From positions 1 to 20,803 of the IMG/VR virus record IMGVR_UViG_3300027908_000253: DNA of 20,803 bases. One strand, written 5' to 3'. The position numbers and the translations under genes were made by a program. The notes beneath the pieces are model-generated. The model was not told the origin of the DNA and ran no database searches. It was given only the letters and a program-made list of their open reading frames with translations. Of this stretch, positions 2,122-14,031 are shown piece by piece. Numbering within the stretch: the first letter of the stretch is position 1; each line of letters opens with the position of its first letter. This stretch comes from a virus.

Positions 2122-2997
2122 GTGCAGCCACTTGCCTACTACAATGAGATCGACCCATACTGCGCTCGGTGGCTGCGCAACCTCATCGCAAATTCCCACA
2201 TCGCTCCAGGCCACGTCGACGAGCGTGACATCCGGGATGTCAAGCCTTATGAACTCGCCCCCTACACCCAATGCCATTTTTTTGCCGGCATCGGCGGCTG
2301 GTCTGTTGCGCTCCGACTCGCAAATATTTCCGATAATCAAAAAATTTGGACTGGCAGCTGTCCTTGCCAGCCTTTCTCCGCGGCAGGCTTTGCAGGCGGC
2401 TTTGATGATGAGCGGCATCTCTGGCCGGCATGGTTCCAACTCGTCGCGCAGTGCAAGCCTCCAATTATCTTTGGAGAGCAGGTTGCGAGCAAGCTTGGAC
2501 TGCAATGGTTCGACCTTGTTCAATCTGATCTGGAAAACGCGCACTACTCCGTTGGGGCGATCGATCTGTGCGCTGCGAGCGTCGGCGCGCCGCATATCAG
2601 ACAGCGATTATGGTTCGTGGGGCACGCCGAAGGTTGCGACGGGCGATTACCAGCGCGATCGATCCGGCAACAAGATTCTGAATTTGCAGGGGCAGGCAAA
2701 ACTCGCGAGCTGGCCGACACCAACGAAGGACGATTCGAAGAACAGTGGGAAACCGGAAACGGCGAGAGTAGCAAACAACAGCGATCCGTTTTCGTCACTT
2801 CCGACAACAGTGCATCGCGTAATTGGAGTGCTGTTGACTGGCTCCCCTGCACCGATGGAAAAGCGCGGCCAGTTGAACCCGGCACATTCCCGCTGGCTCA
2901 TGGGATACCCGCCCGAGTGGCTAAGCTGTGCGCCTTCGGCAACGCCATCGTCCCGCAAGTCGCGGCGGAATTCATCAAAGCGGCCCTAGCCCAATGA
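2122..2997 (+). CDS. DNA (cytosine-5) methyltransferase
   Basis: Transfers a methyl group from SAM to C5 of cytosine in DNA, probably shielding phage DNA from host restriction. Visible motifs are motif [10 protein letters not shown] (about residues 52-60), the catalytic loop [12 protein letters not shown] with the PCQ cysteine (about 78-89), GEQVAS in place of the usual ENV motif (about 113-118), the QRLWFVG motif VIII region (about 161-167), and motif [16 protein letters not shown] near the C-terminus. The length of about 291 residues is normal for compact phage enzymes. GTG 2122 is the only start that keeps the expected N-terminus ([18 protein letters not shown]); no Shine-Dalgarno is evident. 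The stop overlaps the next start (ATGA at 2994). A second frame covering nearly the whole gene is also open (see the entry at 2237). Confidence 0.9.
2237..2989 (+). CDS. Overlapping frame, [20 protein letters not shown]-type phage protein
   Basis: This frame is shifted by one base relative to the methyltransferase and is open from 2132 to 2989. Likely starts are ATG 2237 or 2249; neither has a good Shine-Dalgarno. Its translation has features I associate with a family of phage proteins often named DNA methyltransferase: LPASAAG near the start, [26 protein letters not shown] and SWPTP repeats, and [17 protein letters not shown] near the C-terminus. These segments are the other-frame reading of conserved methyltransferase DNA, so their conservation may be a by-product. 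It has no SAM-binding or catalytic motif of its own. It is either a real overprinted gene or a recurrent annotation shadow. Confidence 0.35.
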
Positions 2998-3227: not shown

Positions 3228-3992
3228 TTGCGTTGTGCAAAAACGCTTCGATCGTCGTGCATCGATCTCGTTGTTTCCGATCTACCTTACGGGCAGACTC
3301 AGAACGATTGGGATAAACCGCTGCCGTTTGAATCGATGTGGCAGGAGTTGCGTCGCGTTACGAAGCCTGCTGCAGCAATCTGCTTAATGGCCGCGCAACC
3401 ATTCGCCGCTCGCCTTGTGTGCAGCAACGAGAAAGATTTCCGCTACGATCTTATTTGGTACAAAAACAAAGCTACTGGATTTCTCAACGCGAAGCGCATG
3501 CCACTGCGAGCGCACGAACACATTCTAATTTTTTATCGGCAAACACCTATTTATAATCCGCAAAAAACTAACGGGCACGAGCCGGGGCACAACGCGAAGC
3601 GCGCTACTAAAAGTTCTAATTACGGAGCTTACGAAAGCACAGAATACGGCGGCAGCACTGAACGCTATCCGACGAGTGTTTTGTCAATTCCGATTATCAA
3701 TAATGATTCTCCCGACAAGGAGCATCCTACACAGAAGCCGGTTCCTTTGATGGAATGGCTGATCGCGTCGTACAGCGTGCCGGGAAACGTCGTGCTTGAT
3801 ATCACCGCCGGCAGTGGTACGATCGGCGTCGCGGCAAACAACCTGAATCGCCACGCTATCCTGTTCGAATTGAACCCGACGTACATAGAAATAGCTCAAC
3901 GCAGATGCGGTCTTGACAAACCCTTCGTAGTCACCGAAACTACGCCATGGCATACCGATGGACGCCTGAAGCTTGGCGCGCGTGGCAGTTGA
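3228..3992 (+). CDS. DNA N6-adenine/N4-cytosine methyltransferase, 5' end frame-disrupted
   Basis: An amino-methyltransferase of the beta arrangement. Motif IV DLPYG comes early (about residue 18), followed by a target-recognition region, HPTQKP (about residue 166), the SAM-binding motif DITAGSGTIG (about 190) and ELNPTYIEIAQRR. It would methylate adenine N6 or cytosine N4. The frame's first available start is TTG 3228, but the typical beginning of this family, MIKLLQGDAIALCK, is encoded in another frame from GTG 3200, coupled to the preceding stop. The two frames meet at an A5 run (3239-3243); removing one A would join them into a normal protein. The gene is therefore either frameshifted, affected by a sequencing error, or translated from a weak downstream start. 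Confidence 0.85.
   Translation: MRCAKTLRSSCIDLVVSDLPYGQTQNDWDKPLPFESMWQELRRVTKPAAAICLMAAQPFAARLVCSNEKDFRYDLIWYKNKATGFLNAKRMPLRAHEHILIFYRQTPIYNPQKTNGHEPGHNAKRATKSSNYGAYESTEYGGSTERYPTSVLSIPIINNDSPDKEHPTQKPVPLMEWLIASYSVPGNVVLDITAGSGTIGVAANNLNRHAILFELNPTYIEIAQRRCGLDKPFVVTETTPWHTDGRLKLGARGS
3927..3943. repeat. 17-bp palindrome, copy D (inverted)
   Basis: GTAGTCACCGAAACTAC; its reverse complement GTAGTTTCGGTGACTAC aligns with the other copies. It lies inside the end of the amino-methyltransferase gene and ends 3 bases before the ATG at 3947. Confidence 0.65.
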
Positions 3993-8452: not shown

Positions 8453-9481
8453 ATGAAAATCCTGATTACAGGCGGCGCGGGATTCATAGGGCGAGCGTTT
8501 ACGCGCCGGTTGGTTGATGATGGGCATGATGTCTTGATCGTGGATAACTTGTCTACGGGATTACACCCGGAGCGTTGGGCATTTAATTGGGCATTTAATT
8601 GGGCATTTAACTCGTGCAATAATTTTGAATTTCAATGTAGGGATTGCCGAGATTTTTTTGCGCACTGGTTCGATTTTTTTGATCATCACGACGGCAATCC
8701 GTTTGATCTTGTCATCCACTGCGCTGCGATTGTTGGCGGCCGGCTGAATATCGACGGCGATCCGCTCAGTGTTGCGACGAACCTCTCGATCGACAGCGAG
8801 TTTTTCAACTGGGCAGTCCGCGGCAAGAAGCTTCCCAAGGTCATATATTTTTCATCGTCGGCGGTCTATCCGCTGGAGTTGCAGACAAGGGAGCGCAATT
8901 GCGCCTTGTCCGAATCGCTGGTCACGTTTGATACCTCGCGCCTGAGTCGGCCCGATCAAACATACGGATGGGCCAAGCTCTCCGGCGAATATCTTGCCAA
9001 GATCGCTGCCGAGAAGTACGGACTTGATGTCAAGATTTACAGGCCCTTTGGCGGCTACGGCGAGGATCAATCTCTGTCCTACCCCTTCCCCTCGATCATT
9101 CGCCGCATTCTCCGCGGCGAGGATCCGATCACAGTCTGGGGTTCGGGCGACCAGGAACGTGACTTCATTCATATCGACGACATCGTGGACGCCGTGCTCC
9201 AAACCATGGATGACCTCAAGCCGGGCGAGGTTCTGAATCTCGGCACCGGCCGTGGCGTGTCGTTCAAGGAACTGGCGCGCATAGCGCTGCGCGTGCTCGA
9301 CCTCCCGCAGACGACTTGCATCATCAACGATCCGACGAAGCCGGAGGGCGTCTTCCGCCGTGTCGCTGACACTTACAAACTCAACCAGTTCTACCAGCCA
9401 AAAGTATGGCTGGAGCAGGGTATCCTGCGGGTTGCCGAGCACCTTAAAAAGACGCTTGACGTGCCCGAAAATATCGTGTAG
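8453..9481 (+). CDS. NAD-dependent sugar epimerase/dehydratase (extended SDR)
   Basis: Acts on a nucleotide sugar. Visible are the Rossmann motif GGAGFIG (residues 7-13), the adenine-ribose acidic residue D31 in VDNLSTG, the SSSAVYP serine region (134-140), and the catalytic Y171 with K175 in YGWAKLSGEY. The IYRPFGGYG and RDFIHIDDIVDA segments are also typical. The substrate (UDP-hexose, GDP-mannose type or other) cannot be fixed from sequence alone. An in-frame 12-base tandem repeat adds WAFN three times (residues about 42-53) after the first Rossmann unit, an unusual insertion. The stop lies inside palindrome copy C. The start ATG 8453 has a weak Shine-Dalgarno. Confidence 0.9.
   Translation: MKILITGGAGFIGRAFTRRLVDDGHDVLIVDNLSTGLHPERWAFNWAFNWAFNSCNNFEFQCRDCRDFFAHWFDFFDHHDGNPFDLVIHCAAIVGGRLNIDGDPLSVATNLSIDSEFFNWAVRGKKLPKVIYFSSSAVYPLELQTRERNCALSESLVTFDTSRLSRPDQTYGWAKLSGEYLAKIAAEKYGLDVKIYRPFGGYGEDQSLSYPFPSIIRRILRGEDPITVWGSGDQERDFIHIDDIVDAVLQTMDDLKPGEVLNLGTGRGVSFKELARIALRVLDLPQTTCIINDPTKPEGVFRRVADTYKLNQFYQPKVWLEQGILRVAEHLKKTLDVPENIV
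8575..8610 (+). repeat. Three perfect 12-bp tandem repeats
   Basis: TTGGGCATTTAA occurs three times head to tail with no mismatch. The unit is four codons long, so a change in copy number keeps the epimerase frame and adds or removes WAFN. Confidence 0.9.
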
Positions 9482-13038: not shown

Positions 13039-13214
13039 TAACAACCAAAAATCCAAGCTTGGAAAAGAAAAAGACTGATTATCTAGCTGCACTGCTAGAG
13101 GACTATGCTGATGGCTTAGAAGGTCATTGGATCGTATTTGAGAGTGATTACCCGGTGTTTGCAGAGGATTTACGAAACGCGGCTAAGACGATTCGCGCGC
13201 TTTCGCGTCGTTAA
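13035..13214 (+). CDS. Small hypothetical protein, 59 aa
   Basis: Not recognised. ATG 13035 overlaps the TPR glycosyltransferase stop (ATGA). The product is a charged helical protein (SLEKKKTDYLAALLEDYADG, then DLRNAAKTIRALSRR). AT-richer than its large neighbours, like the other small genes set between sugar genes. Confidence 0.6.
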   Translation: MITTKNPSLEKKKTDYLAALLEDYADGLEGHWIVFESDYPVFAEDLRNAAKTIRALSRR

Positions 13215-13218
13215 ACAA

Positions 13219-14031
13219 ATGACTCAAAGCATAATCAACATCGACTTGACTGCGGCGGATCGCACTGTCTCGTTCCAGCTCTCGATCGATTCCGATTGCC
13301 TGTCGGACCGCGAACTGATGAACGCGATCAAGTTGGGCGGCAGCGTTGAACCTGAGGTCTGTCACCTGATGATGCGCGTCATGCGTCCTGGCGATTACGC
13401 GATCGACGGCGGCGCCAATATCGGGTTCTTTACGGTGCTGTTGTCGAAGCTTGTCGGCAAGGATGGCTGTGTTCTGTCGGTAGAGCCAGGGCAAAACAAT
13501 TTGTATAAGCTTGAAGAAAATATCCGACTCAATAAATTGTCTAACGTCGAGGTTGTTGATCAACCGTTGTGGGATAAGTATGAGATGGTCAAGCTGTACC
13601 TGTGCGAGGATGGCGGCAAGAATTCGCTGGCAGCGCATGAAGGTACGCGAGGGTCGTCTGATATTACTACTGTCGTGCTTGACGATTATTTAGATTTGCG
13701 CCGAAGATTACGTTTGTTGAAATTAGACATTGAAGGTGCCGAAGAAAAAGCGTTGCGAGGCGCGTTGAGTTTTTTGAATGAAACGCATCATTGCCCTTAC
13801 ATTGTTGCGGAATTGAACATTGAGGCGCTTCCTAAGTTTAATAGTTCGCCTGCCAGTATCTGTGATTTTATGCGCGAACGCGGTTATAACCTGTTCCTCT
13901 TGCATCCGAACGGCGCGCTTCCGACCTATGTTCCGCGCAGAACGAAGGTGCAGCCGACGAGGTTGAACTGGAATGTGTTGTTCTCGACGTTCGAGGCGGT
14001 GGGCGCGGCTTGGCCGGAGATCGTGATATGA
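13219..14031 (+). CDS. FkbM-family SAM-dependent methyltransferase
   Basis: Predicted O-methyltransferase acting on a sugar or other hydroxyl. The SAM-binding motif YAIDGGANIGFFTVLLSKLV lies at about 60-79, followed by VLSVEPGQNN (about 85-94) and LLKLDIEGAEEKALRG (about 166-181), which is the FkbM signature region. The C-terminal part (IVAELNIEALPKF, GYNLFLLHPNG) also fits. FkbM enzymes commonly decorate glycans, so it fits as the last step of the cassette. ATG 13219 is 4 bases after the previous stop. Bases 13640-13850 are AT-richer than the rest. The stop overlaps the next ATG (14028). Confidence 0.85.
   Translation: MTQSIINIDLTAADRTVSFQLSIDSDCLSDRELMNAIKLGGSVEPEVCHLMMRVMRPGDYAIDGGANIGFFTVLLSKLVGKDGCVLSVEPGQNNLYKLEENIRLNKLSNVEVVDQPLWDKYEMVKLYLCEDGGKNSLAAHEGTRGSSDITTVVLDDYLDLRRRLRLLKLDIEGAEEKALRGALSFLNETHHCPYIVAELNIEALPKFNSSPASICDFMRERGYNLFLLHPNGALPTYVPRRTKVQPTRLNWNVLFSTFEAVGAAWPEIVI

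Follow-up and report, generated by a model that had tools for sequence, protein, structure and literature searches.

A conserved gene overprinted on phage C5-cytosine methyltransferase genes, probably encoding the second subunit of a split enzyme

The C5-cytosine DNA methyltransferase (MTase) gene at positions 2122-2997 of a 20,803-base stretch of viral DNA (hereafter the window) is overlapped in the +1 frame by a second gene. This gene, which we call beta, has a conserved start and stop of its own, is always nested over the MTase, and bears the motif IX that is missing from the MTase frame, which we call alpha. We regard it as very probable that alpha and beta are the two parts of a split C5-MTase encoded in nested +1 frames, with beta as the target-recognition and motif IX subunit.

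According to this proposal, positions 2122-2997 would encode both subunits of the enzyme. Translation in frame 0 would yield alpha, an acidic protein containing the AdoMet-binding and catalytic motifs I-VIII as well as motif X, and translation from an internal start at 2237 (or 2249) would yield beta, a strongly basic protein in which motif IX is accompanied by WPTP repeats replacing the target-recognition region. Neither polypeptide alone would be a complete MTase; the two would assemble, motif IX and the recognition of the DNA target being contributed by beta, and the complex would methylate cytosines, presumably shielding the phage DNA from host restriction. We infer the translation of both frames, their assembly, the activity of the complex and the reading of DNA by the WPTP repeats from sequence; the protective role is suggested by the general role of orphan MTases in phages. 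The features of the locus are as follows.

2122-2997 (+): alpha, the C5-cytosine MTase frame (frame 0), 291 residues, pI 5.8, with motifs I-VIII and X and without IX (PF00145, phrog_363, translation)
2237-2989 (+): beta, the overprinted gene in the +1 frame, 250 residues from ATG 2237 (alternative ATG 2249), pI 11.1 (start/stop pattern in relatives, phrog_1008, selection)
2278-2301 (+): alpha motif I, FFAGIGGW (sequence; conserved in the alpha alignment)
2359-2379 (+): alpha motif IV with the catalytic Cys, CPCQPFS (sequence; aligned to M.HhaI)
2473-2484 (+): alpha motif VI in a variant form, GEQV instead of the usual ENV (sequence; invariant in the alpha alignment)
2584-2607 (+): alpha motif VIII region, GAPHIRQR (sequence; aligned to M.HhaI)
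2938-2955 (+): alpha motif X, GNAIVP (sequence; GNA invariant in the alpha alignment)
2447-2587 (+): helix and two-strand element predicted in beta (residues 71-117, from SLESRLR to GRSICALRA), overprinting alpha motifs VI-VIII (AF2 model; per-column second-frame conservation)
2618-2647 (+): beta repeat 1, WPTPxxxD type (residues 128-137; W128 and T130 nearly invariant in the beta alignment; repeat family)
2711-2734 (+): beta repeat 2, WPTPTKDD (residues 159-166; W159 and T161 nearly invariant in the beta alignment; repeat family)
2873-2920 (+): motif IX in the beta frame, 16 residues (profile match to the single-frame motif IX, which aligns with motif IX of M.HhaI)

Evidence for a second gene

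The MTase gene starts with GTG and encodes 291 residues. Its product matches PF00145 above the curated cut-off (E 4.5e-15) and phrog_363 (E 3e-79), and contains motifs I, IV, VI and VIII of the C5-MTases, motif VI in the form GEQV. Motif IX is absent from frame 0 and is found in the +1 frame. The latter is open from a TTG at 2132 to position 2989, and from stop to stop over 2045-2989 (314 codons), so that both frames are open where an earlier sequence-only reading of this locus had placed them.

That reading had put the chance of such an open run at roughly one in a million. The estimate is wrong, because a frame lying over a gene is not random sequence: when the synonymous codons of the window MTase were shuffled, 1.5 stops were expected in the +1 frame over codons 48-276, and the frame was open in 13% of the trials (P = 0.13). 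The open run in the window sequence alone is unremarkable and constitutes weak evidence. Stops were also sought in relatives, using 212 homologues that had been gathered by the MTase protein alone, blind to the second frame, and a null model in which the MTase protein and codon usage are preserved. The +1 frame contained 2 stops against 652 expected, and was open in 210 of the 212 sequences, compared with 10.2 expected. The other four frames were far nearer to expectation and none was depleted like +1 (observed/expected stops: +2, 2344/2047; -0, 759/829; -1, 1275/1134; -2, 1481/1270).

A second, unbiased sample was obtained by picking viral MTases by the DNA pattern of motif IV alone (PCQPF followed by S or a similar residue and by AGK), which samples one large class of C5-MTases and gave 99 distinct complete MTases. 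No +1 stop at all was present over the tested stretch in 80 of these (4.7 expected); the +1 frame contained 43 stops in total compared with 387 expected, with the +2 frame at expectation (1245 and 1235, respectively). Nearly all of the open-frame MTases in this sample bear motif IX in the second frame. L490 and L535, both of which have motif IX in frame 0, stand out with 10 and 9 stops in the +1 frame. Judged from these sequences, the overprinted layout is the rule among the sampled phage C5-MTases, within the class that is caught by the motif IV pattern.

Selection was assessed in 91 disjoint pairs of sequences, the count being restricted to single changes whose neighbouring codons were identical. 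The test is a strong one because the +1 register puts every third position of an MTase codon at a second position of beta. NN/NS was 0.35 [0.29-0.41] in the overlap and 1.72 [1.07-3.00] in MTase codons 1-38 upstream, the pairs not being phylogenetically independent. A check of synonymous-site constraint gave a consistent picture: MTase-synonymous changes are suppressed when they change the second-frame residue, with SN/SS being 0.47 [0.40-0.57] in the overlap and 1.56 [1.05-2.81] in the same upstream codons, and those involving a second-frame stop amount to 4 of 1648 weighted opportunities in the overlap versus 81 of 536 upstream. The constraint on beta also covers codons 45-166 (NN/NS 0.42 [0.35-0.51]). 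Opposite the variable region of the MTase, where the repeats are located, beta is more constrained than alpha (beta NN/NS, 0.26 [0.19-0.35]; alpha NS/SS, 0.77 [0.44-2.03]). At several positions the second-frame residue is more fixed than the MTase residue it overprints: Leu137 of the MTase is conserved at 75% and the corresponding Trp of beta at 99%, and Val251 (84%) and Ala259 (81%) of the MTase are each overprinted by a Leu that is 99% conserved. Beta is under purifying selection at the protein level.

The boundaries of beta are sharp. In relatives, stops occur frequently in the +1 frame as far as MTase codon 40 (at codon 21 in 65% of them), and there are essentially none from codon 41 to approximately codon 276. 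An ATG is present at MTase codon 39 in 66% of the relatives and at codon 43 in 38%; their counterparts in the window are ATG 2237 (250 residues) and ATG 2249 (246 residues), both products ending at 2989. The TTG at 2132 was considered as a start of beta and rejected, given the frequent +1 stops in relatives before MTase codon 41. Shine-Dalgarno matches of 6 nt (for example, AAGGAG at -11) precede 28% of the ATG39 starts, compared with 1.9% of 1243 control ATGs in the +1 frame; the window beta start has only a weak match. The ATG of its own and the Shine-Dalgarno enrichment point to internal initiation rather than frameshifting as the probable route to beta.

The sequence-only reading had also described features of the second translation as recurring in phage proteins, and such a family exists. 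The window beta protein matches PHROG 1008 (E 3.8e-31) and PHROG 31772 (E 2e-21), as do all 100 of 100 aligned second-frame proteins. Both PHROGs bear the description 'DNA methyltransferase', which seems to have been carried over from the gene they overlap; they are the beta family, and the description hides an alternative-frame partnership with PHROG 363, which is alpha. Searches of Pfam, NCBIfam and the PDB with beta returned no useful relative. Canonical MTases have nothing that corresponds to the N-terminal half of beta, and the AF2 model of beta is mostly of low confidence (mean pLDDT 62), the best part being the helix and two-strand element (mostly pLDDT 75-92). The WPTPxxxD repeats are present in 0-6 copies per beta, with a median spacing of 36 residues. 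Beta is strongly basic (pI 11.1) and alpha is acidic (pI 5.8).

A search with the beta profile found no standalone beta: each of the 80 loci recovered overlaps an MTase, always in the same register. Five of these 80 loci have a disrupted alpha. In L230, L246, L263, L264 and L275, the MTase frame contains one stop (TGA or TAG) or a frameshift and the second frame is present, which may reflect real loss, recoding or an assembly error. PADLOC matched one relative, weakly, to its orphan-MTase model and returned nothing further.

Motif IX, repeats and layouts among relatives

Motif IX was identified by sequence profile rather than by structure. In beta the motif is C-terminal, and a scan for the related motif LNPxFVEWLMG revealed that the nesting recurs in several clearly distinct MTase subfamilies; motif X of alpha (GNxVVP), read in the other frame, usually follows LNP at a distance of 65 nt. 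In a few high-G+C viral contigs, LSPRFVEWLMGLPDGWVTD and LGNGVVPQQ share a frame with the catalytic motifs. The profile of these single-frame MTases aligns with M.HhaI (E 2e-27), and the motif stretch lands on motifs IX-X of M.HhaI (RKLHPRECARVMGYPDSYKVHPSTSQAYKQFGNSVVI); its alignment to motif IX of M.HhaI (RKLHPRECARVMGYPDSY) is a low-scoring tail that is colinear with the strong match. A Foldseek search with a single-frame relative returned M.HhaI, M.HaeIII and other C5-MTases, matched mainly in the catalytic domain (~165 columns). The assignment of motif IX to beta and its absence from alpha follow from the hhalign matches of each protein to the single-frame MTases: alpha matches over motifs I-VIII (E 4e-18), and beta only around motif IX (22 residues, E 3.4e-6, probability 88%). 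As expected, hhalign found no match between beta and a small alpha alignment.

Where motif IX is in the +1 frame, the second frame contains 50 stops compared with 966.5 expected (n=341); this group includes loci that were found through beta and is biased in that respect, the unbiased figure being that of the 99 MTases. Where motif IX is in frame 0, there are 74 second-frame stops compared with 97 expected, and none of the sequences is fully open (n=19). We had taken the second frame of the latter group to be at chance, but this was revised, as 12 members are depleted of stops up to motif IX (10 compared with 32.4).

Three layouts can be distinguished among the relatives. In the commonest by far (C1), which is that of the window, the repeats and motif IX are both in +1. 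In the second (C2; 12 cases including L514), the repeats are in +1 and motif IX is in frame 0. This is the depleted set just mentioned, and its +1 frame is depleted up to motif IX because the repeats stand in +1 there. L540, L541, L542, L545, L546, L607 and others are of this type. In the third (C3), the repeats, motif IX and motif X are all in frame 0 and the second frame is not depleted (5 cases, 12 stops compared with 14.5), L569 being the clearest example of all three elements in one frame. L514 has an 11-residue motif in the catalytic frame and GNAIN in another frame, and looks like a recent frameshift that joined the two frames.

L540, L541 and L545 encode in +1 a repeat peptide, LLPTPRATDGTKGGPNQRGSSGDL.LPSAV, that L569 encodes nearly identically in frame 0. 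Its being read in different frames argues that the peptide itself is likely to be the product that matters and that it occupies the target-recognition domain (TRD) position of the MTase. Given that the C2 group has motif IX in frame 0 and the repeats in +1, beta is not merely a carrier of motif IX. A broader reading of the layouts is possible, and we put it forward tentatively: the alternative-frame split may be the normal form of phage C5-MTases, beta being a set of tandem recognition modules (0-6 WPTP repeats) that evolve in their own frame, with alpha nearly free to drift there. As part of the same tentative reading, the frame boundary may have moved in evolution between a state with everything in one frame, one with the repeats in +1 and motif IX in frame 0, and one with both in +1.

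Alternative explanations and implications

The sequence-only reading had offered a choice between a true overprinted gene pair and a widespread annotation shadow, in which the amino acids and codon usage of the MTase happen to avoid +1 stops and gene finders call the resulting frame. The 13% of codon shuffles that leave the +1 frame of the window MTase open and the richness of beta in S, T, P, R and A, as is typical of shadow proteins, would both fit a shadow. The depletion to 2 stops under a null that preserves the MTase protein and codon usage, the purifying selection on beta amino acids, the sharp start and stop boundaries with their Shine-Dalgarno enrichment, and second-frame residues that are more fixed than those of the MTase would not, and the codon-shuffle null and selection tests leave a shadow with practically no probability. 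Thus, stop depletion, purifying selection and the gene's own start and stop in relatives bear out the overprinted pair. A mobile element concealed in another frame, of the kind seen in ShiLan with its out-of-frame HNH endonuclease (PMC11855218), would likewise place a second protein in a phage methylase gene, and we give it an equally negligible chance: beta has no match to HNH or other nucleases, the second frame spans the conserved catalytic region instead of forming an insertion, and it is present in nearly all members rather than patchily.

If beta is a real protein, it could have a separate job, as an anti-restriction protein, an MTase regulator or a DNA-binding protein, and not be an MTase subunit. 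An N-terminal half unmatched in known MTases, the lack of a Pfam or PDB relative, the pI of 11.1, and the stop-depleted +1 repeat frame of the C2 group despite its motif IX being in frame 0 are all compatible with this view. We nevertheless consider it unlikely, as alpha lacks motif IX, beta bears it together with the repeats at the TRD position (both are part of the MTase itself in single-frame relatives), and none of the 80 beta-found loci has beta standing alone. Programmed ribosomal frameshifting, on the other hand, would produce a fusion of catalytic domain, TRD and motif IX instead of a separate beta. Such a fusion would put motifs I-VIII, the repeats and motif IX in canonical order, as they naturally occur in L569. 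However, the constraint on beta already holds over codons 45-166, before any site at which a shift would be useful, and beta is equipped with its own start codons and Shine-Dalgarno matches; a shift would also lose motif X, which alpha retains in frame 0. This makes frameshifting highly improbable, and a split C5-MTase with a separately initiated beta subunit is the explanation we prefer.

The overlap can already be seen in GenBank, where the genes are mostly named 'DNA methyltransferase' or 'Mte8-like' and no explanation is given. Both frames are annotated as overlapping genes in K1G (gp34/gp35) and PhiXhv-5, the second frame alone in PMG1, and the first alone in PVN06 and BcepC6B. Gene 58 of the laboratory phage N15 (L619:14547-15542) carries an overprinted second frame ending in LNPHHSRWLMGLPVEW that is unannotated in the record. 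Matches found by tblastn include the E. coli phages Bas71, Bas72 and Bas80.

Several other observations concern the window itself. A second, unrelated DNA MTase, probably of the N6-adenine or N4-cytosine type, is encoded just downstream at 3228-3992 (+) (phrog_67, E 4e-61; DLPYG-type motif), so that two MTases lie side by side. A further methyltransferase-like protein is encoded at 13138-14028 (+) (phrog_8156, E 6e-20), and the product of 8453-9481 (+) matches phrog_540, 'nucleotide-sugar epimerase' (E 8e-59). GC skew over positions 1-1000 is 0.25, much above the rest of the contig (20,803 bases).

To our knowledge, it is rare in bacteria and phages for two conserved, functional proteins to share a long overlap on the same strand, and such overlaps are usually disputed. 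The present overlap comprises ~235 shared codons with protein-level conservation in both frames, in hundreds of divergent phages and prophages, and single-frame relatives reveal which parts have moved. Alternative-frame split MTases were nowhere described as common in phages in the literature we searched, most subscription journals being outside its scope. What appears to be new is how general the layout is, being the rule among the phage C5-MTases sampled; the location of the recognition-region repeats in the overprinted frame, which in that region is selected more strongly than the MTase frame; and the survival of intermediate and single-frame forms.

If our interpretation is correct, many phage genes annotated as a single cytosine MTase yield two proteins. 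Tests in which only frame 0 is expressed or recoded would in that case yield inactive enzymes and lead to false conclusions on orphan MTases, because codon optimisation destroys beta. On the tentative reading of beta as a set of recognition modules, phages could also alter their methylation specificity through the gain, loss or exchange of repeats while keeping the link between the subunits. The family provides many natural variants of a split MTase, a kind of enzyme that is used for targeted DNA methylation, and in it one can study how a single sequence accommodates two proteins.

Comparison with known systems

An enzyme of this kind is already known in the form of the characterised M.EcoHK31I (YGGCCR). 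Lee, Kam and Shaw reportedly described in 1995 that the small EcoHK31I gene is contained within the large one and read in a different frame; the window shows nesting of this type, as beta (2237-2989) lies inside alpha (2122-2997) in another frame. The large subunit of M.EcoHK31I contains motifs I-VIII and X, and the small one only motif IX (PMC3404938). The likeness thus extends to there being two polypeptides, with motifs I-VIII and X but not IX on the large one and motif IX on the second, as predicted here. There are also differences. M.EcoHK31I is part of a restriction-modification system, whereas the window enzyme is phage-borne and no restriction endonuclease was identified with it. The predicted TRD of M.EcoHK31I has been placed in the large subunit (PMC3404938), whereas the repeats at the TRD position are in the overprinted frame here. 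The likeness is one of layout in the features compared, and membership in the M.EcoHK31I family is a separate question.

M.EcoHK31I and M.AquI have been listed as exceptions to the rule that these enzymes are monomeric (PMC3404938). M.AquI resembles the window enzyme in being a naturally split C5-MTase. Its split is located inside the variable region, and motifs IX and X are together on the small polypeptide (PMC3404938); here, by contrast, motif X is in frame 0 with alpha, motif IX is in +1, and the genes are nested.

Two phage systems share single aspects of the layout. An insertion in actinophage methylases, ShiLan, holds an out-of-frame HNH endonuclease (PMC11855218); this is a homing insertion, whereas the MTase itself is overprinted here. 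Bacillus phages encode multispecific C5-MTases with tandem target-recognition domains in a single coding sequence (PMC8936443), and the WPTP repeats of beta, 0-6 in number and ~36 residues apart, similarly place several units in a row. Our guess is that the WPTP repeats may be recognition units.
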